From Aquariibacter albus (GTDB lineage: Bacteria; Pseudomonadota; Gammaproteobacteria; Burkholderiales; Burkholderiaceae_C), in assembly GCF_014145335.1 (NCBI RefSeq), contig NZ_JACIVI010000001.1, forward strand, positions 806,001 through 870,000: a stretch of DNA of 64,000 bases, in the 5' to 3' direction. The notes beneath the pieces are model-generated. The model was not told where the DNA came from. It did no database searches and saw nothing but the letters and a program-made list of their open reading frames with translations. A program made the translations under genes and the position numbers. Shown one piece after another: positions 12,262 to 45,716 of the stretch (positions are counted from its first letter, which is position 1; each line of letters opens with the position of its first letter).

Positions 12262-12822
12262 ATGGCCTTGTACCGATTCGAGGGGCGGGAGCCCCAGGTT
12301 CACCCCGAGGCCTATGTGGCCGAGCGCGCCGAGCTGATCGGTGCGGTCACCGTCGGCGCAGGGGGCAGCGTCTGGTCGGGCGTGGTGGCGCGCGGCGACA
12401 ACGAGCCCATCGCCATCGGCACGGGCAGCAATGTGCAGGAAGGCGCGGTGCTGCACACCGACGTCGGCCATCCCCTGGTGATCGAGGAGGGCGTGACCAT
12501 CGGCCACCAGGCCATGCTGCACGGCTGCCGCATCGGCGCCGGGGCGCTGGTCGGCATCCAGGCGGTGGTGCTGAACGGGGCGGTGATCGGCCCGCGCTGC
12601 CTGGTCGGCGCCGGTGCGCTGGTCACCGAAGGCAAGGTCTTCGAGGCGGGACAGCTCATCCTGGGCTCGCCCGCCAAGGCCGTGCGGCCCCTGAGCGAGG
12701 CCGAGCAGGCCGGGCTGGCACGCTCGGCGGCCTCCTACGTGGACCGCGGCCGCCGCTTCCGCGAGGGGCTGCAGCGCATCGACGCCCCGGCCGCCGGCGA
12801 CGATGGCTTCAAACCCGCCTGA
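12262..12822 (+). CDS. Gamma-carbonic anhydrase family protein
   Basis: 186 residues forming a left-handed beta-helix of hexapeptide repeats (IGAVTVGAGGSVWSGVVARGD and IGTGSNVQEGAVLHTD, each seen in parts). Trimeric zinc-site His residues are in VLHTDVGH and GHQAMLHGC. Family members (YrdA/PaaY-like) range from true carbonic anhydrases to hydrolases of unknown substrate. The catalytic Glu of Cam-type enzymes is not evident, so activity is uncertain. It is 3 bases from hslO, so co-transcribed. The lead residues MALYRF may start there or one codon later. Confidence 0.9.
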   Translation: MALYRFEGREPQVHPEAYVAERAELIGAVTVGAGGSVWSGVVARGDNEPIAIGTGSNVQEGAVLHTDVGHPLVIEEGVTIGHQAMLHGCRIGAGALVGIQAVVLNGAVIGPRCLVGAGALVTEGKVFEAGQLILGSPAKAVRPLSEAEQAGLARSAASYVDRGRRFREGLQRIDAPAAGDDGFKPA

Positions 12823-12825
12823 GCC

Positions 12826-13794
12826 ATGAGCGAACTGCACAAATTCATCTTCGAGGGCCTGCCGGTGCGCGGCATGCTCGTCCGCCTGACCGAAGGCTGG
12901 CAGGCGCTTCAGGCCCGGCGCGCGGCCGCGGGGGGGTGGCCCGCGCCGCTGACGGGCCTGGTCGGCGAGCTGGCCGCAGCCGGCGTGCTGATGCAGGCCA
13001 ACCTGAAGTTCAACGGCGCGCTGGTGCTGCAGATCCACGGCGACGGGCCGGTCAAGCTGGCCGTGGTCGAGGTGCAGCCCGAGCTGAAATTCCGTGCCAC
13101 CGCCACGCTCGAAGGCGAGCTGGCACCCGACGCGGGCCTGCCGGCCATGGTCAATGCGCAAGGCAAGGGCCGCTGCGCCATCACCCTGGACCCGGCCGAC
13201 CGCCTGCCCGGCCAGCAGCCCTACCAGGGGGTGGTGCCGCTCCACGGCGACCGTGGCGAGCCGCTGCACCGGCTCAGCGAGGTGCTGGAGCACTACATGC
13301 TGCAGTCCGAGCAGCTCGACACCAAGCTGATCCTGGCGGCCAACGGCGAGTTGGCGGCCGGCCTGCTGATCCAGCGCCTGCCGGTGGAAGGCGAGGGCAA
13401 TCTGGAGCGCGCGGCCCGCGAGGACGCGATCGGCCTGAGCGAGGCCTACACCCGAATCGCGCACCTGGCCTCGACGCTGACGCCCGAGGAACTGCTGACC
13501 CTGGACGCCGAGACCGTGCTGCGCCGTCTGTTCTGGGAAGAGGACCTGCGGCGCTTCGAGCCCCTGGTCGGCGACCGGGCGCCGCGCTTTGCCTGCCGCT
13601 GCTCGCGCGAGCGCGTCGGCGCGATGCTGCGCAGCCTGGGTCGCGAGGAAATGGACGGCCTGATCGCCGAGCGCGGCGAGGCCGAGGTGGGCTGCGAGTT
13701 CTGCGGTGCCCAGTACCGCTTCGACGCGGTCGACGTGGGCGAGCTCTTCGTGCCGCAACGCGACCAGCCACCGGTCAGCGGTCGGCCTCAATGA
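12826..13794 (+). CDS. hslO: Hsp33 redox-regulated chaperone
   Basis: 322 residues. The four zinc-binding redox-switch cysteines are near the C terminus as FACRCSRE (CxC) and GCEFCGAQYRF (CxxC), with ~30 residues between. Oxidation releases zinc and activates the holdase. The N-terminal FIFEGLPVRGMLVRL and HYMLQSEQLDT segments match the family. It is 3 bases after the carbonic anhydrase gene and is followed by a terminator hairpin. Confidence 0.95.
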   Translation: MSELHKFIFEGLPVRGMLVRLTEGWQALQARRAAAGGWPAPLTGLVGELAAAGVLMQANLKFNGALVLQIHGDGPVKLAVVEVQPELKFRATATLEGELAPDAGLPAMVNAQGKGRCAITLDPADRLPGQQPYQGVVPLHGDRGEPLHRLSEVLEHYMLQSEQLDTKLILAANGELAAGLLIQRLPVEGEGNLERAAREDAIGLSEAYTRIAHLASTLTPEELLTLDAETVLRRLFWEEDLRRFEPLVGDRAPRFACRCSRERVGAMLRSLGREEMDGLIAERGEAEVGCEFCGAQYRFDAVDVGELFVPQRDQPPVSGRPQ

Positions 13795-13805
13795 ACCTCA
13801 ATGGT

Positions 13806-13833
13806 GCAAAAACGGCCTTGACAGCCGTTTTGC
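13806..13833 (+). terminator. Likely rho-independent terminator after hslO
   Basis: The 8-bp stem AAAACGGC/GCCGTTTT (13809-13816 and 13824-13831) with loop CTTGACA can be extended by a GC pair around a bulge. The right arm ends in TTTT. It starts 11 bases after the hslO stop. Confidence 0.6.
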
Positions 13834-13903
13834 CTCGGGTTTACCAGCATCGAAACAGGGCTCGACTGCACAAAGTCGAAATGCTCGCGTCAGGGGCCAG
13901 TGC

Positions 13904-13909
13904 TACATT
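13904..13909 (+). promoter_or_regulatory. Possible extended -10 (TGCTACATT) for the ODH operon
   Basis: TGC precedes TACATT, an extended -10 layout, in a locally AT-rich stretch (ATTGATTTTCGTGATTT). It would give a leader of about 150 bases before sucA. There is no good -35. Confidence 0.35.
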
Positions 13910-13914
13910 GATTT

Positions 13915-14064
13915 TCGTGATTTGAGGGTCCTTCCCGTCCCCTTGCGTGTTTCCCTCGCGGGAAACCGAAGGCGGGTCGCAATCCGCCAAGCGGTCAAGC
14001 CGTGTCGCGGAAGGTTTTCCAACCAGCCAGAGTGCCGGCAGCCGGCGCGAAAGGTGAGCGAAAG
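13915..14064 (+). promoter_or_regulatory. Structured sucA 5' leader, candidate sucA RNA motif
   Basis: The leader contains a perfect hairpin GTTTCCC-TCGC-GGGAAAC (13949-13966) and next to it a 5-bp stem GGCGG/CCGCC (about 13971-13988), then a ribosome-site region (AAGGTGAGCGAAAG) before the ATG. A conserved cis-regulatory RNA called the sucA motif has been described in 5' UTRs of sucA in Burkholderiales. Position and lineage fit. I have not matched its covariance model, so the identity is an inference. Confidence 0.45.
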
Positions 14065-16923
14065 ATGATGCAGCAATACAGGTCCAACTCGTACCTGTTC
14101 GGGGGCAACGCGCCCTATGTGGAGGAGCTCTACGAGGCCTACCTCCTCAACCCGGGCTCCGTGCCCGACAACTGGCGCAGCTACTTCGACGCACTGCAGA
14201 ACGTGCCTGCGGTCGATGGCAGCGAGAGCCGCGACGTGGCCCATGCGCCCGTCATCGAATCCTTCGCGCAGCGGGCCAAGGCCAATGCCTTTGCCGTCAA
14301 GGCCAGCGCCGCCGAACTGGCGGTGGCCCGCAAGCAGGTCCATGTCCAGTCCCTGATCGCCGCCTACCGCTCGCTCGGGGCGCGCTGGGCCGACCTCGAC
14401 CCGCTCAAGCGCCAGGAACGCCCGAAGATTCCCGAGCTGGAGCCGGCGTTCTACGACCTGAGCGAGTCCGACATGGACATCACGTTCAGCGCGACCAATA
14501 CCTATTTCACGAAGGCCGAGCAGCAGACGCTGCGCGAGATCCTGCAGGCGCTGCGCGAGACCTACTGCGGCACCCTGGGCGCCGAGTTCATGCACATCAC
14601 CGAGCCGGCCGAGAAGCGCTGGTGGCAGGAGAAGCTCGAAAGCATCCGCAGCAAGCCCGCTTTCGTGGCCGAGAAGAAGGTCCACATCCTCGACCGCCTG
14701 ACCGCGGCCGAAGGCCTGGAGCGCTACCTGCACACCAAGTACGTCGGTCAGAAGCGCTTCTCGCTGGAAGGCGGCGAAAGCTTCATCGCGGCGATGGACG
14801 AACTGGTCAACCGCGGCGGTGAAGTCGGGGTCCAGGAGATCGTGATCGGCATGGCCCACCGCGGCCGCCTGAACGTGCTCGTCAACACCCTCGGCAAGAT
14901 GCCGAAGGACCTGTTCGCCGAGTTCGACCACACCGCGCCCGAGGAGCTGACCGCCGGCGACGTGAAGTACCACCAGGGCTTCTCGTCCGACGTCACCACC
15001 CGCGGCGGCCCGGTGCACCTGAGCCTGGCCTTCAACCCCTCGCACCTCGAGATCGTGAACCCGGTCGTCGAGGGCTCGGTCAAGGCCCGCCTGGATCGCC
15101 GCGGCGATCAGGAAGGCGACACCGTGCTCCCGGTCCTGGTCCACGGCGACGCGGCCTTCGCCGGCCAGGGCGTGGTGATGGAGACGCTCGCGCTGGCCCA
15201 GACGCGCGGCTACTACACCGGCGGCACCGTCCACCTGGTCATCAACAACCAGATCGGCTTCACCACCTCCGACCCGCGCGACAGCCGCTCGACGCTGTAC
15301 TGCACCGACGTCGTGAAGATGATCGAGGCCCCGGTGCTGCACGTGAACGGCGACGATCCGGAGGCCGTCGTGCTGGCCACCCAGCTCGCGCTCGACTACC
15401 GCCAGCAGTTCAACAAGGACGTCGTCGTCGACATCGTCTGCTTCCGCAAGCTGGGCCACAACGAGCAGGACACGCCCAGCCTGACGCAGCCGCTGATGTA
15501 CAAGAAGATCGCGGCCCACCCCGGCACCCGCAAGCTGTACGCGGAGAAGCTGGTCACCCAGGGCGTGATTCCCGCCACCGCGCCGGACGAGATGGTCAAG
15601 GCCTTCCGCGCCGCGATGGACGAGGGCAAGCACACGGTCGATCCGGTGCTGACCAACTTCAAGAGCAAGTACGCGGTCGACTGGTCGCCCTTCCTGGGTC
15701 GCAAGTGGACCGATGCCGGCGACACCGCGATCCCGGTCACCGAGTTCCGCCGCCTGGCCGAGCGCATCACCACCGTGCCCTCGGGGTTCAAGGTGCATCC
15801 GCTCGTCGAGAAGGTGCTGGCGGACCGCGCGGCGATGGGCCGCGGCGAAGTCAATGTCGACTGGGGCATGGGCGAGCATATGGCGTTCGCCTCGCTGGTC
15901 GCCTCCGGCTATCCGGTGCGGCTGTCCGGCGAGGACTGCGGTCGCGGCACCTTCACCCACCGTCACGCCGTCCTGCACGACCAGAACCGCGAGAAGTGGG
16001 ACACCGGCACCTACATCCCGCTGCAGAACGTGGCCGACGGCCAGGCCCCCTACACGGTGATCGATTCCATCCTGTCGGAGGAGGCGGTGCTGGGCTTCGA
16101 GTACGGCTATGCCGCGGCCGAGCCGAACACCCTGGTCATCTGGGAAGCGCAGTTCGGCGACTTCGTCAACGGTGCACAGGTCGTGATCGACCAGTTCATC
16201 GCCTCGGGCGAGGTCAAGTGGGGCCGCTCCAACGGCCTGACCCTGATGCTGCCGCACGGCTACGAGGGTCAGGGCCCGGAGCACAGCTCGGCGCGCATCG
16301 AGCGTTTCCTGCAGCTTTCGGCCGACACCAACATGCAGGTCGTCCAGCCGACCACCGCCAGCCAGATCTTCCATGTGCTGCGCCGGCAGATGGTGCGGCC
16401 CTTCCGCAAGCCGCTGATCCTGTTCACGCCCAAGTCCCTGCTGCGCAACAAGGACGCGACCTCGCCGCTGGCCGAGTTCACCAAGGGCGAGTTCAAGACC
16501 GTCATCGGCGAACTGGACGCGACGATCGACGCGGCCAAGGTCAAGCGCGTGGTCGCCTGCTCGGGCAAGGTCTATTACGACCTGGTGAAGAAGCGGGCGG
16601 AGAAGAAGGCGTCCGACGTCGCCATCGTGCGCGTCGAGCAGCTCTATCCCTTCCCGCACAAGGCCTTCGCAGCCGAGCTGAAGAAGTACCCGAACGCCAC
16701 CGAGATCACCTGGTGCCAGGATGAGCCGCAGAACCAGGGTGCCTGGTTCTTCGTGCAGCACTACATCCACGAGAACATGCTGGAAGGCCAGCGCCTCGGC
16801 TATGCCGGTCGGCCCTTCTCGGCCTCGCCGGCGGTGGGCTACGCCCACCTGCACCAGGAGCAGCAGAAGGCCCTGCTCGACCAGGCCTTCGGCAAGCTCA
16901 AGGGCTTCGTCCTCACGAAGTAA
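14065..16923 (+). CDS. sucA: 2-oxoglutarate dehydrogenase E1 component
   Basis: 952 residues. The thiamine-diphosphate enzyme decarboxylates 2-oxoglutarate and succinylates the E2 lipoyl group. Visible are the N-terminal E2-binding segment (YVEELYEAYLLNPGSVPDNW), the IGMAHRGRLNVL block, the catalytic HLEIVNPVVEGSVKA region, HGDAAFAGQGVV with the cofactor Asp, and the C-terminal transketolase domain (DWGMGEHMAFASL). The ATG at 14065 (MMQQYRSN) was chosen over an earlier in-frame start because family proteins begin here and AAGGTG lies upstream. It is first in the sucA-sucB-lpdA operon. Confidence 0.97.
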   Translation: MMQQYRSNSYLFGGNAPYVEELYEAYLLNPGSVPDNWRSYFDALQNVPAVDGSESRDVAHAPVIESFAQRAKANAFAVKASAAELAVARKQVHVQSLIAAYRSLGARWADLDPLKRQERPKIPELEPAFYDLSESDMDITFSATNTYFTKAEQQTLREILQALRETYCGTLGAEFMHITEPAEKRWWQEKLESIRSKPAFVAEKKVHILDRLTAAEGLERYLHTKYVGQKRFSLEGGESFIAAMDELVNRGGEVGVQEIVIGMAHRGRLNVLVNTLGKMPKDLFAEFDHTAPEELTAGDVKYHQGFSSDVTTRGGPVHLSLAFNPSHLEIVNPVVEGSVKARLDRRGDQEGDTVLPVLVHGDAAFAGQGVVMETLALAQTRGYYTGGTVHLVINNQIGFTTSDPRDSRSTLYCTDVVKMIEAPVLHVNGDDPEAVVLATQLALDYRQQFNKDVVVDIVCFRKLGHNEQDTPSLTQPLMYKKIAAHPGTRKLYAEKLVTQGVIPATAPDEMVKAFRAAMDEGKHTVDPVLTNFKSKYAVDWSPFLGRKWTDAGDTAIPVTEFRRLAERITTVPSGFKVHPLVEKVLADRAAMGRGEVNVDWGMGEHMAFASLVASGYPVRLSGEDCGRGTFTHRHAVLHDQNREKWDTGTYIPLQNVADGQAPYTVIDSILSEEAVLGFEYGYAAAEPNTLVIWEAQFGDFVNGAQVVIDQFIASGEVKWGRSNGLTLMLPHGYEGQGPEHSSARIERFLQLSADTNMQVVQPTTASQIFHVLRRQMVRPFRKPLILFTPKSLLRNKDATSPLAEFTKGEFKTVIGELDATIDAAKVKRVVACSGKVYYDLVKKRAEKKASDVAIVRVEQLYPFPHKAFAAELKKYPNATEITWCQDEPQNQGAWFFVQHYIHENMLEGQRLGYAGRPFSASPAVGYAHLHQEQQKALLDQAFGKLKGFVLTK

Positions 16924-17068: not shown

Positions 17069-18340
17069 ATGCCCATCATCGACGTGAAGGTTCCGCAACT
17101 GTCGGAATCCGTGGCCGAAGCCACCCTGCTGCAGTGGAAGAAGAAGCCCGGCGAAGCCGTGGCCATCGACGAGATCCTGATCGAGATCGAGACCGACAAG
17201 GTCGTGCTCGAAGTGCCGGCGCCGGCGGCCGGCGTGATGGCCCAGATCGTCAAGAACGACGGCGAGCTCTGCGTGAGCGACGAGGTCATCGCCCGCATCG
17301 ACACCGAGGGCCAGACCGCGGTCAGCCCGCTGGAAGTCAAGCCGGTGGCCGCGGCCCCGGCGGCGGCCGCGGCAGCCCCCGCCCCGGCGGCCGCAGGCAG
17401 CAAGTCGGACGTGTACTCGCCGGCGGCGGCGAAGATCGCGGCCGATGCCGGTATCTCCGGTGTCGCCGGCACCGGCAAGGATGGCCGCGTGACCAAGGGC
17501 GACGTGCTCGGCGCCGTGGCTGCGGCCGCCAGCGCCCCCGCGGCCAAGGCCGCTCCGGCCCCGGCGCTCAGCGTGCCGGCCAGCCCGGCCGTCGCCAAGC
17601 CGCTGCCCGCCGTGGACGTGGCGGCGCCCAAGCTCTCGGACCGCCCGGAGCAGCGGGTGCCGATGTCGCGCCTGCGGGCCCGCGTGGCCGAGCGTCTGCT
17701 GCAGTCGCAGGCCACCAACGCCATCCTCACGACCTTCAACGAGGTCAACATGGCCCCGGTCATGGAGATGCGCAAGCGCTTCCAGGACAAGTTCGAGAAG
17801 GAGCACGGCGTCAAGATCGGCTTCATGTCCTTCTTCGTGAAGGCGGCCGTCCATGCGCTGAAGAAGTTCCCGATCCTGAACGCCTCGGTCGATGGCAACG
17901 ACATCGTCTACCACGGCTATTTCGACATCGGCATCGCGGTGGGTTCGCCGCGCGGCCTGGTGGTGCCCATCATCCGCAATGCCGACCAGCTGAGCTTCGC
18001 CGACATCGAGAAGACCATCGCCGGCTTCGGCCAGAAGGCCAAGGACGGCAAGCTCTCGCTCGAAGAGCTGTCGGGCGGCACCTTCTCGATCAGCAACGGC
18101 GGCACCTTCGGCTCCATGCTGTCGACGCCGATCATCAACCCGCCGCAGTCGGCCATCCTGGGCGTGCACGCCACCAAGGACCGTGCCGTGGTCGAGAACG
18201 GTCAGGTCGTGGTCCGCCCGATCAACTACCTCGCCATGTCCTACGACCACCGGATCATCGACGGCCGCGAGGCCGTGCTGGGCCTGGTCGCGATGAAGGA
18301 AGCGCTGGAAGACCCCGCGCGCCTGCTGTTCGACATCTGA
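17069..18340 (+). CDS. sucB: Dihydrolipoyllysine succinyltransferase (E2 of 2-oxoglutarate dehydrogenase)
   Basis: 423 residues. A lipoyl domain (1-80) carries the lipoylated Lys44 in [10 protein letters not shown]. It is followed by an Ala/Pro-rich linker, a peripheral-subunit-binding domain ([16 protein letters not shown], about 112-148), a second flexible linker, and the catalytic domain ending in [13 protein letters not shown] with the catalytic His and Asp. It forms the ODH core. It lies 145 bases after sucA across a hairpin, with GAGAGAC before the ATG. Confidence 0.97.
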
Positions 18341-18459: not shown

Positions 18460-19887
18460 ATGTCCCAACACTTCGACGTCATCGTCATCGGCGCCGGCCC
18501 CGGCGGCTACATCGCCGCCATCCGCGCCGCGCAGCTCGGCTTCAAGGTCGCCTGCATCGATGCCTGGACCAATGCCCAGGGCGGCCCCGCCCCGGGTGGC
18601 ACCTGCACCAATGTCGGCTGCATTCCCAGCAAGGCCCTGCTGCAGTCCAGCGAGCACTACGAGCACGCCGGCAAGCACTTCGCAGCGCACGGCATCGGCG
18701 TGTCCGGCCTGACGCTGGACGTGGCCAAGATGGTCGGCCGCAAGGACACCGTCGTGAAGCAGAACAACGACGGCATCCTCTACCTGTTCAAGAAGAACAA
18801 GGTCGAGTTCTTCCACGGCACCGGCCGCTTCGTGAAGGCCACCGAGAAGGGTTACGAGATCGCCGTCGACGGCCCCGGCGCTGCCACGCTGAGCGGCGAG
18901 CACATCGTCGTGGCCACCGGTTCCAGCGCCCGTGCGCTGCCGGGCGCGGACTTCGACGAGGAGCGCATCCTCAGCAACGACGGCGCGCTGCGCATCGGCG
19001 CCGTGCCGGCCACGCTGGGCGTGATCGGCTCGGGGGTGATCGGCCTGGAGATGGGCTCGGTCTGGCGCCGCCTGGGGGCCAAGGTCACCGTGCTCGAAGG
19101 CCTGCCGACCTTCCTCGGCGCGGTCGACGAGACCATCGCCAAGGAAGCCAACAAGGCCTTCACCCGGCAGGGCCTGAAGATCAACCTGGGCGTGAAGATC
19201 AACAGCGTCACGAAGGGTGAAGCCGGCGTGACCGTGGCCTACACCGATGCCAAGGGCGCCGAGCAGAGCCTGGAGGTCGAGCGCCTGATCGTCTCCATCG
19301 GCCGCGTGCCCCACACCGCCGGCCTCGCGCCGGAGGCGGTCGGCCTGAAGCTCGACGAGCGCGGCGCCATCGTGGTCGACGAGGAGTGCAAGACCAACCT
19401 GCCCAAGGTCTGGGCGGTCGGCGACGTGGTCCGCGGCCCCATGCTCGCCCACAAGGCCGAGGAAGAGGGCGTGGCGGTGGCCGAGCGCATCGCCGGTCAG
19501 CACGGCCATGTCGACTTCAACCTCATTCCCTGGGTGATCTACACCTCGCCCGAGATCGCCTGGGTCGGCCAGACCGAGCAGCAGCTCAAGGCCAGCGGCC
19601 GCGCCTACAAGGCCGGCAGCTTCCCCTTCATCGCCAACGGCCGCGCCCGCGCGCTGGGCGACACGACCGGCATGGTGAAGATGCTGGCCGACGCGACGAC
19701 GGACGAACTGCTGGGCGTGCACATCGTCGGCCCGGTGGCCAGCGAGCTGATCGCCGAGGCCTGCGTGGCCATGGCCTTCAAGGCCAGCAGCGAGGACATC
19801 GCCCGCATCTGCCATGCCCACCCCTCGCTGAGCGAAGCGACCAAGGAAGCCGCGCTGGCCGTCGACGGCCGCACGCTGAACTTCTGA
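18460..19887 (+). CDS. lpdA: Dihydrolipoyl dehydrogenase (E3)
   Basis: 475 residues. The FAD-binding dinucleotide motif is IVIGAGPGGY (residues 8-17). The redox-active disulfide is C49/C54 in GGTCTNVGCIPSKAL. The NAD motif is GVIGSGVIGLEMGSV, and the C-terminal His-Glu pair is in CHAHPSLSEA. It reoxidises the dihydrolipoyl groups of SucB. It is third in the ODH operon, 119 bases after sucB, with GGAGA before the ATG. A 9-bp GC-rich stem at 19898-19928 follows the stop and may end the transcript. Confidence 0.97.
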   Translation: MSQHFDVIVIGAGPGGYIAAIRAAQLGFKVACIDAWTNAQGGPAPGGTCTNVGCIPSKALLQSSEHYEHAGKHFAAHGIGVSGLTLDVAKMVGRKDTVVKQNNDGILYLFKKNKVEFFHGTGRFVKATEKGYEIAVDGPGAATLSGEHIVVATGSSARALPGADFDEERILSNDGALRIGAVPATLGVIGSGVIGLEMGSVWRRLGAKVTVLEGLPTFLGAVDETIAKEANKAFTRQGLKINLGVKINSVTKGEAGVTVAYTDAKGAEQSLEVERLIVSIGRVPHTAGLAPEAVGLKLDERGAIVVDEECKTNLPKVWAVGDVVRGPMLAHKAEEEGVAVAERIAGQHGHVDFNLIPWVIYTSPEIAWVGQTEQQLKASGRAYKAGSFPFIANGRARALGDTTGMVKMLADATTDELLGVHIVGPVASELIAEACVAMAFKASSEDIARICHAHPSLSEATKEAALAVDGRTLNF

Positions 19888-45342: not shown

Positions 45343-45419
45343 TGGTCGGGGTGGCGGGATTCGAACTCGCGACCTACTGCTCCCAAAGCAGTTGCGCTAC
45401 CAGGCTGCGCTACACCCCG
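45343..45419 (-). tRNA. tRNA-Pro (anticodon TGG)
   Basis: 77 bases including an encoded CCA. The acceptor stem CGGGGTG/CACCCCG is perfect. The D arm is GCGCAGCCTGGTAGCGC, the anticodon loop TTTGGGA lies on stem ACTGC/GCAGT, and the T arm GCGAG-TTCGAAT-CCCGC carries one A-C mismatch (52-62). The wobble U reads CCN codons. Confidence 0.96.
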
Positions 45420-45429
45420 AGGTGTCTGG

Positions 45430-45454
45430 ATTCTAGGGGCGCGGCCCCTAAACT
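45430..45454. promoter_or_regulatory. Divergent tRNA promoter region with central palindrome
   Basis: Minus-strand TAGAAT (45435 to 45430) faces tRNA-Pro and plus-strand TAAACT (45449-45454) faces tRNA-Arg. Between and overlapping them is a perfect inverted repeat TAGGGGC-GCG-GCCCCTA (45434-45450). Each -10 is about 10 bases from its mature tRNA end. Confidence 0.5.
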
Positions 45455-45464
45455 CATGGTCAGG

Positions 45465-45541
45465 CTGTCCGTAGCTCAGCTGGATAGAGCAGCGGTCTTC
45501 TAAACCGCAGGTCGGGGGTTCGAGCCCCTCCGGACAGGCCA
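45465..45541 (+). tRNA. tRNA-Arg (anticodon TCT)
   Basis: 77 bases including encoded CCA (45539-45541). The acceptor is CTGTCCG/CGGACAG, the D arm GCTCAGCTGGATAGAGC, the anticodon loop CTTCTAA on stem GCGGT/ACCGC, the variable loop AGGTC, and the T arm GGGGG-TTCGAGC-CCCTC (one G-T pair). It reads AGA/AGG, rare codons in this GC-rich genome. Confidence 0.97.
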
Positions 45542-45550
45542 ATGTGCAGG

Positions 45551-45612
45551 CTGCAAGCCCGCACACCCTCAGGCAAGGAGCCTGAGCACGCAAACCCGAA
45601 CCGGGCTTGCAG
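45551..45612. repeat. Nested inverted repeat between tRNA-Arg and the SRP RNA
   Basis: The outer arms are exact complements, CTGCAAGCCCG (45551-45561) and CGGGCTTGCAG (45602-45612). Inside is a second perfect hairpin CTCAGGC-AAGGA-GCCTGAG (45568-45586). No T tract follows in either direction. Function unknown; possibly a bidirectional transcription barrier or a small structured RNA. Confidence 0.7.
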
Positions 45613-45615
45613 AAA

Positions 45616-45716
45616 AGGTGACGAGCCTTACCCCCGGCACTGGTCGCAACAGTTAGGGCTGCTTGGTTCCCCACCTGACCCGTTTGGCCGCGCTCCCATG
45701 CGGGGAGGCCCGTCGC
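45616..45716 (-). ncRNA. ffs: Signal recognition particle RNA (4.5S RNA)
   Basis: Read on the minus strand, the apical domain has GGGTCAGG, then TGG-GGAA-CCA, then AGCAGCCC: the conserved asymmetric loop and GGAA tetraloop that bind Ffh. The 5' and 3' ends pair (GACGGGCCT with AGGCTCGTC, one G-U) and a CCTTTT run follows as terminator. A TAGAAT -10 lies 6-7 bases upstream. The ends are approximate. SRP RNA close to dnaX-ybaB-recR is a recurrent arrangement in bacteria. Confidence 0.87.

Follow-up and report, generated by a model that had tools for sequence, protein, structure and literature searches.

The window, by which we mean the whole 64,000-nucleotide stretch of DNA that was analysed, carries a sucA-sucB-lpd cluster encoding 2-oxoglutarate dehydrogenase, an enzyme at the branch point of carbon and nitrogen metabolism (Table 1). 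The sucA motif (RF01070) directly precedes sucA, ending at 14060 with the ATG at 14065, and the ribosome-binding sequence AAAGGTGAGCG occupies 14050-14060. On the 5' side of the leader, at 12262-13794, lie genes for a gamma-carbonic-anhydrase-like protein and an Hsp33 (HslO)-like chaperone, for both of which the best matches were below the NCBIfam cut-offs. Farther along the window, tRNA genes at 45346-45419(-) and 45465-45538(+) stand beside a bacterial small SRP RNA at 45617-45714(-), the whole group covering 45346-45714.

Table 1. Features of the sucA leader and operon, in window positions.
Feature	Position	Strand	Basis
Candidate extended -10 box TGCTACATT	13901..13909	+	scored; most leaders outside family f4 have a similar box, 15-25 nt ahead of the 5' strand
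Conserved 5' element GGUCCUUCC; CCUUCC at 13930-13935 is the proposed switching strand	13927..13935	+	leader comparison
Upstream stem P0 (CCCG/CGGG, CCUU/AAGG)	13934..13976	+	minimum-free-energy fold
7-bp hairpin, tip of P0	13949..13966	+	sequence and fold; compensated in congener L149
RF01070 sucA motif	13977..14060	+	covariance-model match, 85.9 bits, full length
P1	13978-13980/14058-14060	+	read off RF01070 alignment
P2	13983-13987/14007-14011	+	read off RF01070 alignment
P2b	13992-13995/13999-14002	+	read off RF01070 alignment
Core strand CGGAAGG (from the 3' side of P2 across the one-base joint into P3)	14008..14014	+	RF01070 alignment, leader comparison
P3	14013-14016/14021-14024	+	read off RF01070 alignment
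P4	14025-14028/14053-14056	+	read off RF01070 alignment
P5	14032-14038/14042-14048	+	read off RF01070 alignment
Ribosome-binding region AAAGGUGAGCG	14050..14060	+	3' sides of P4 and P1
sucA, 2-oxoglutarate dehydrogenase E1	14065..16923	+	over NCBIfam cut-off
sucB, dihydrolipoyllysine succinyltransferase (E2)	17069..18340	+	over NCBIfam cut-off
lpd, dihydrolipoyl dehydrogenase (E3)	18460..19887	+	over NCBIfam cut-off

When the whole 64-kb window was scanned against Rfam 15, the sole match in the sucA leader was RF01070, with 85.9 bits and E 5.3e-15 against a cut-off of 40, and all 83 positions of the model were matched. The sucA leader is a genuine, ordinary member of this known family, as the original prediction had proposed when it named the Rfam sucA covariance model and covarying stem pairs among relatives as ways to check the idea. 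Such pairs were indeed found: in an alignment of 73 diverse relatives (A1; 73 of the 96 non-redundant leaders described below, the rest having a misplaced 3' boundary or unusual spacing), the Rfam structure was paired in 87.2% of cells versus 80.8% in shuffles, and its covariation score was 0.201 versus 0.127 +/- 0.006, with 0 of 500 shuffles as high in either measure. Changes on both sides were seen in 14 of 27 Rfam pairs, a count equalled by 11 of 500 shuffles; a control slid by +2 columns had 120 double-changed cells versus 98 in the Rfam fold, yet was paired in 43.4% of cells. The window matched neither sucA-II (RF01758) nor sucC (RF01759) in the Rfam scan, and an antisense RF01070 match at 13940-14016(-), with 17 bits and E 3, was attributed to chance. 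In available text, that of PMC4603805 and PMC7011215 included, the sucA RNA is termed a probable, predicted or candidate riboswitch, and no ligand of RF01070 is named in the available parts of the literature searched (PMC4603805, PMC7011215, PMC6321483, PMC3766115, PMC2864571, PMC3521395).

RF01070 is present as a single copy in the organism's own genome and was found in 279 of 299 sampled genomes of its own family, in 71 of 81 genomes of family f4, 103 of 120 of family f32, 4 of 26 of family f18 and 2 of 5 of family f3, both of the latter under the cut-off. In the wider samples it was found in 50 of 399 genomes of the order (47 over the cut-off), in 3 of 274 of the class, all three from the organism's own family, and in 0 of 14 control genomes, with one control match, below the cut-off, at a relaxed E of 1. 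The restriction of the motif to Burkholderiales holds in the order, class and control samples. All 277 tabulated loci, which comprise 258 unique leaders, precede sucA, and SucA begins 55-106 nt past the core strand. When 37 genomes of the organism's own family, picked for weak or missing matches, were searched with laxer settings, 27 came out over the cut-off; in two of the remaining ten, sucA lies at the edge of a contig.

Several further leaders were seen by eye. In genomes without an RF01070 match at E 0.001, where 1500-nt flanks before sucA were inspected, seven sucA leaders (L289, L313, L298, L299, L301, L304, L292) resemble diverged members, in which either both sides of P2 differ (UCUAC/GUAGA, UUCAC/GUGAA, CUCGC/GCGAG) or P3 carries an insert. 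Members of the family are probably under-detected by the Rfam model. Two other conserved-looking types of sucA leader, one in f4 (L294, L296, L297) and one in genus g190 of the organism's own family (L293, L295, L300), resemble the motif only at the ribosome-site end. In other families of the order (L340-L359), many sucA genes stand close behind an apparent gltA end, without a long leader.

The perfect 7-bp hairpin with a TCGC loop that the original prediction had pointed out in the leader is present (GTTTCCC-TCGC-GGGAAAC, seven perfect pairs and a four-base loop), and the further stem and ribosome-site region that it had seen behind the hairpin are the RF01070 motif itself. The leader as a whole belongs to the sucA motif as predicted; the hairpin does not, since it ends at 13966 and the motif begins at 13977, ten bases away, and it is not a general feature of the order. 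The minimum-free-energy fold of the window leader contains the Rfam fold plus P0. The hairpin forms the tip of P0, whose base pairs CCCG (13934-13937) with CGGG (13973-13976) and then CCTT with AAGG. A congener (L149) has the same P0 base and a tip rebuilt with other, compensated letters (GGCUUUC/GAAAGCC). Helices in this region are common: among the 80 unique segments that lie between the 5' strand and the motif and are 28 nt or longer, 75 form a helix covering 70% or more of their length, with a median z of -2.2 versus mononucleotide shuffles. The hairpin with P0 exceeds chance. By eye, no P0-like stem was found in leaders of Acidovorax, Variovorax and Hydrogenophaga, and P0 is a feature of the lineage, variable at its tip.

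What is new relative to the Rfam model is a conserved strand at the 5' end of the leader, CCUUCC, which lies outside the model and is the interesting part of this otherwise ordinary locus. Leaders were compared in a non-redundant set of 96 at 86% similarity, taken from fetched loci rather than at random, with high-scoring members first and weak ones added on purpose; L080, L083, L087, L098, L162, L244, L245, L246 and later L217 were left out of the leader analyses (no motif, or a cut-off or misplaced one), and some named loci (L051-L130) were placed in the organism's own family by SucA similarity. CCTTCC is the most widespread 6-mer in the 74 non-redundant leaders outside f4 and occurs at most 85 nt from the motif in 57 of them, where dinucleotide shuffles give 3.2. 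Plain CCTTCC was present in 230 of 320 unique leaders (357 leaders in total). Leaders of f4 instead carry GCCUUCUGC or a near form, with CCUU starting 8-15 nt before the motif, and CCTTCTG or CCTTTCG occurs in 21 of the 22 non-redundant f4 leaders against 0.42 expected. Side-by-side comparison of leaders from named SucA loci (78 of the 80 fetched had sequence before the gene) placed GGYCCUUCC before P0, or right before the motif where P0 is missing. In f18 and in a Polynucleobacter-like genus, leaders keep the motif but lack the strand. In the available text of the literature searched, which did not include the first description of the motif, the 5' strand was not found. That first description is reportedly the one by Weinberg et al. 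in 2007.

The preceding triplet GGY (window 13927-13929) is also conserved, with G in 48 and 43 of 57 leaders at its first two places and Y in 56 of 57; it adds little to the pairing proposed below.

The strand is probably transcribed, because candidate -10 boxes lie 5' of it and because a reported leader length fits a start before it. The available text of PMC4603805 gives a sucA leader of 118 nt in Burkholderia cenocepacia; carried over to seven f32 relatives, this length would put the start 3-11 nt before the strand if the first or second ATG is used, and 1 nt inside the strand in three of the seven loci if the third is used. For the window, transcription would start a few bases 3' of the candidate -10 box, at about 13916-13926, as judged from the position of the box; no complete sigma-70 promoter was found near 13901-13909 by a consensus scan.

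CCUUCC is the exact complement of GGAAGG at 14009-14014, a run that takes in some of the 3' side of P2, the single base joining P2 to P3 and the first half of P3, and the Rfam fold and the CCUUCC/GGAAGG pairing are mutually exclusive. By comparison of the leaders, complementarity to the core is maintained where the strand itself is altered. Plain CCUUCC is missing from 19 unique leaders of the organism's own family, and 11 of these still have an equally strong 7-bp complement, with one wobble, to the core strand of the same leader, against 0.62 expected from shuffles; in f4 the same is true of 54 of 55 against 1.94 expected; no excess was seen among strand-less leaders of f32 (1 of 13, 0.37 expected) or f18 (0 of 4). 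The altered forms in the own family are UCUUCCG (L052), CUUUCCG (L053, L062, L231), CCUUUCG (L064, L072, L417 and, at another place, L097) and CCUUCUG (L089, L393, L403), and each of the four combines one C-to-U change, which weakens a pair, with a G at the seventh place, which supplies a further pair. This G comes after plain CCUUCC in 3 of 189 unique leaders, versus 6 of 11 wobble forms counted strictly in place, a difference whose Fisher p ignores kinship. In a tree of SucA from 217 loci whose leaders are unique, the wobble state changes seven times, and the extra G accompanies the wobble in about four of five supported independent pairs (sign test p 0.125), in a test that takes the best complement in each leader and so favours finding the extra G. 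The remaining 8 of the 19 altered leaders miss the score: pairing is down to 6 bp in L233, L234 and L239, L241 has a weaker 7-bp run, and L067, L070, L118 and L242 have nothing comparable.

These altered forms bear on the idea that CCUUCC is instead a DNA element, or a protein or small-RNA site, just 3' of the transcription start, where AGGYCCT forms a near palindrome. The proximity of CCUUCC to the promoter would suit such a site, and so would the conserved GGY, which pairing leaves unexplained. CCUUCC lies at very different distances from the -10 box and from the core in different leaders, however, and both the f4 forms and the altered own-family forms track what complements the core instead of holding to a single sequence, making this explanation quite improbable.

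The core side of the pairing is nearly invariant. In 198 unique strand-bearing leaders the core strand reads GGAAGG (189), GGGAGG (6) or GGAGGG (3), all of them pairable, versus 15 pairable and 10 non-pairable cores in 25 unique strand-less leaders. In the non-redundant set, non-pairable cores occur in 0 of 80 leaders with the strand and in 4 of 16 without it (Fisher p 5e-4, kinship ignored); since P2 alone also allows GGGAGG, only the base left unpaired in the Rfam fold speaks for the strand, and it does so in few lineages. Two-sided covariation of the strand with the core is nearly absent, the one good case being L049 (CCCUCC with GGGGGG), itself just below the Rfam cut-off. Two-sided changes are nearly missing because the core strand is so constant, and most of that constancy is accounted for by the need of the same bases to form P2 and P3.

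Candidate partners elsewhere were looked at as well. Family f3 was rejected as a case of strong two-sided covariation: in L162, CCCCUC complements the core GAGGGG from a place far 5', and in L292 no partner was seen by eye. In the Polynucleobacter-like genus (L032, L034, L036, L251), GGUCAUUCG or GGCCAUUCG, about 41 nt before the motif, complements the core GGAUGG or GAAUGG; GGUCAUUCG, which complements the GGAUGG core, was rejected as the strand of this genus as it seems to lie 5' of the -10 box.

A plain RF01070 leader, in which a ligand- or protein-binding core hides the ribosome site via P4/P1 and CCUUCC never pairs with the core, would account for the Rfam fold appearing in the minimum-free-energy fold of the window leader, for the covariation of that fold in its own right and for the lineages that keep the motif without the strand. 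It leaves unexplained the complementarity kept in altered strands (11 of 19; 54 of 55) and the linked extra G, and we regard it as possible but rather unlikely.

We instead think it somewhat probable that the RF01070 leader controls sucA translation by choosing between two folds via CCUUCC/GGAAGG. In the Rfam fold, P2, P3, P4 and P1 would form, with P4/P1 taking up part of the ribosome-binding sequence. In the alternative fold, CCUUCC at the 5' end would pair with GGAAGG in the cell; P2 would then be largely opened and P3 half opened, and P4/P1 should loosen as a result. Because P0 shares two C with the switching strand, it would compete with invasion by that strand. In f4, a 5-bp complement (AAGGC or near) stands just before the strand in 48 of 54 unique leaders, against 7.0 expected; with P0 taking two strand bases in the window's lineage, the strand would thus be half buried in differently made hairpins in two lineages. 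A signal, whether metabolite or protein, that stabilises the Rfam fold would lower translation of sucA, and probably of sucB-lpd as well.

Ensemble folding put the two folds within a few kcal/mol of each other: the Rfam fold was favoured by a median of 2.95 kcal/mol in 56 leaders with CCUUCC and by about 2.6 kcal/mol in the window leader, and the alternative fold by a median of 0.8 kcal/mol in 23 leaders with CCUUCUG or CCUUUCG. With approximate ribosome-site windows, predicted access to the ribosome site in the alternative fold rose by more than 0.1 in 30 of 79 leaders, fell in 3 and changed less in the rest; in the window leader it was 0.48 in both folds. The direction of the switch is therefore weakly supported by the modelling in general and is not supported by the calculation for the window itself. 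Another idea is that CCUUCC, which resembles the anti-Shine-Dalgarno sequence of 16S rRNA, pairs directly with the ribosome site. Its CCUU could indeed pair with AAGG in the ribosome site of the window, yet the predicted duplex with the core is stronger (median -10.5 versus -5.4 kcal/mol, the core being better in 77 of 79, with the ribosome-site windows again approximate and the site placed roughly in some rows), and in the f4 forms the match to the core strand is lengthened. We consider this direct pairing highly improbable.

Control by termination was also considered. There was no terminator-like site on the + strand of 13780-14080, and the sole such site, on the - strand where 0.5 is expected, was rejected. 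In Herbaspirillum seropedicae, according to the available text of PMC7011215, motif and operon are expressed in proportion, with the motif higher on nitrate, and the proportional expression speaks against early termination. The most likely mechanism is a translational two-state leader.

More broadly, we lean very slightly towards viewing the sucA motif as the core of a larger two-state leader, in which an anti-core strand at the 5' end (CCUUCC or GCCUUCUGC), frequently with half of it taken up by a hairpin particular to the lineage, would invade the P2/P3 strand and set sucA translation in several Burkholderiales families. If true, the two-state reading would supply the switching part of this orphan RNA and a way to test it directly by mutation: the strand offers a simple experiment of breaking and then restoring the pairing that is independent of knowledge of the ligand. 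Because the conserved strand is left out of the model, constructs trimmed to the Rfam boundaries may lack the switching part, and a response could be hidden in them.

Translational riboswitches as a general class form two exclusive folds, in one of which the ribosome site is paired. The leader described here is predicted to resemble them in that its ribosome site is paired in one of two competing folds; unlike in translational riboswitches in general, the competing strand would be 5'-terminal, before the core. With the sucA motif as modelled in RF01070 it shares the whole model, the adjoining sucA and a ribosome site in the paired 3' part, and it adds P0 with the 7-bp hairpin and the 5' strand CCUUCC, both outside the model. 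The sucA-II and sucC RNAs, described in the available text of PMC2864571 from Pseudomonadales and gamma-Proteobacteria, are likewise candidate leaders of TCA-cycle genes, but belong to other taxa than RF01070.
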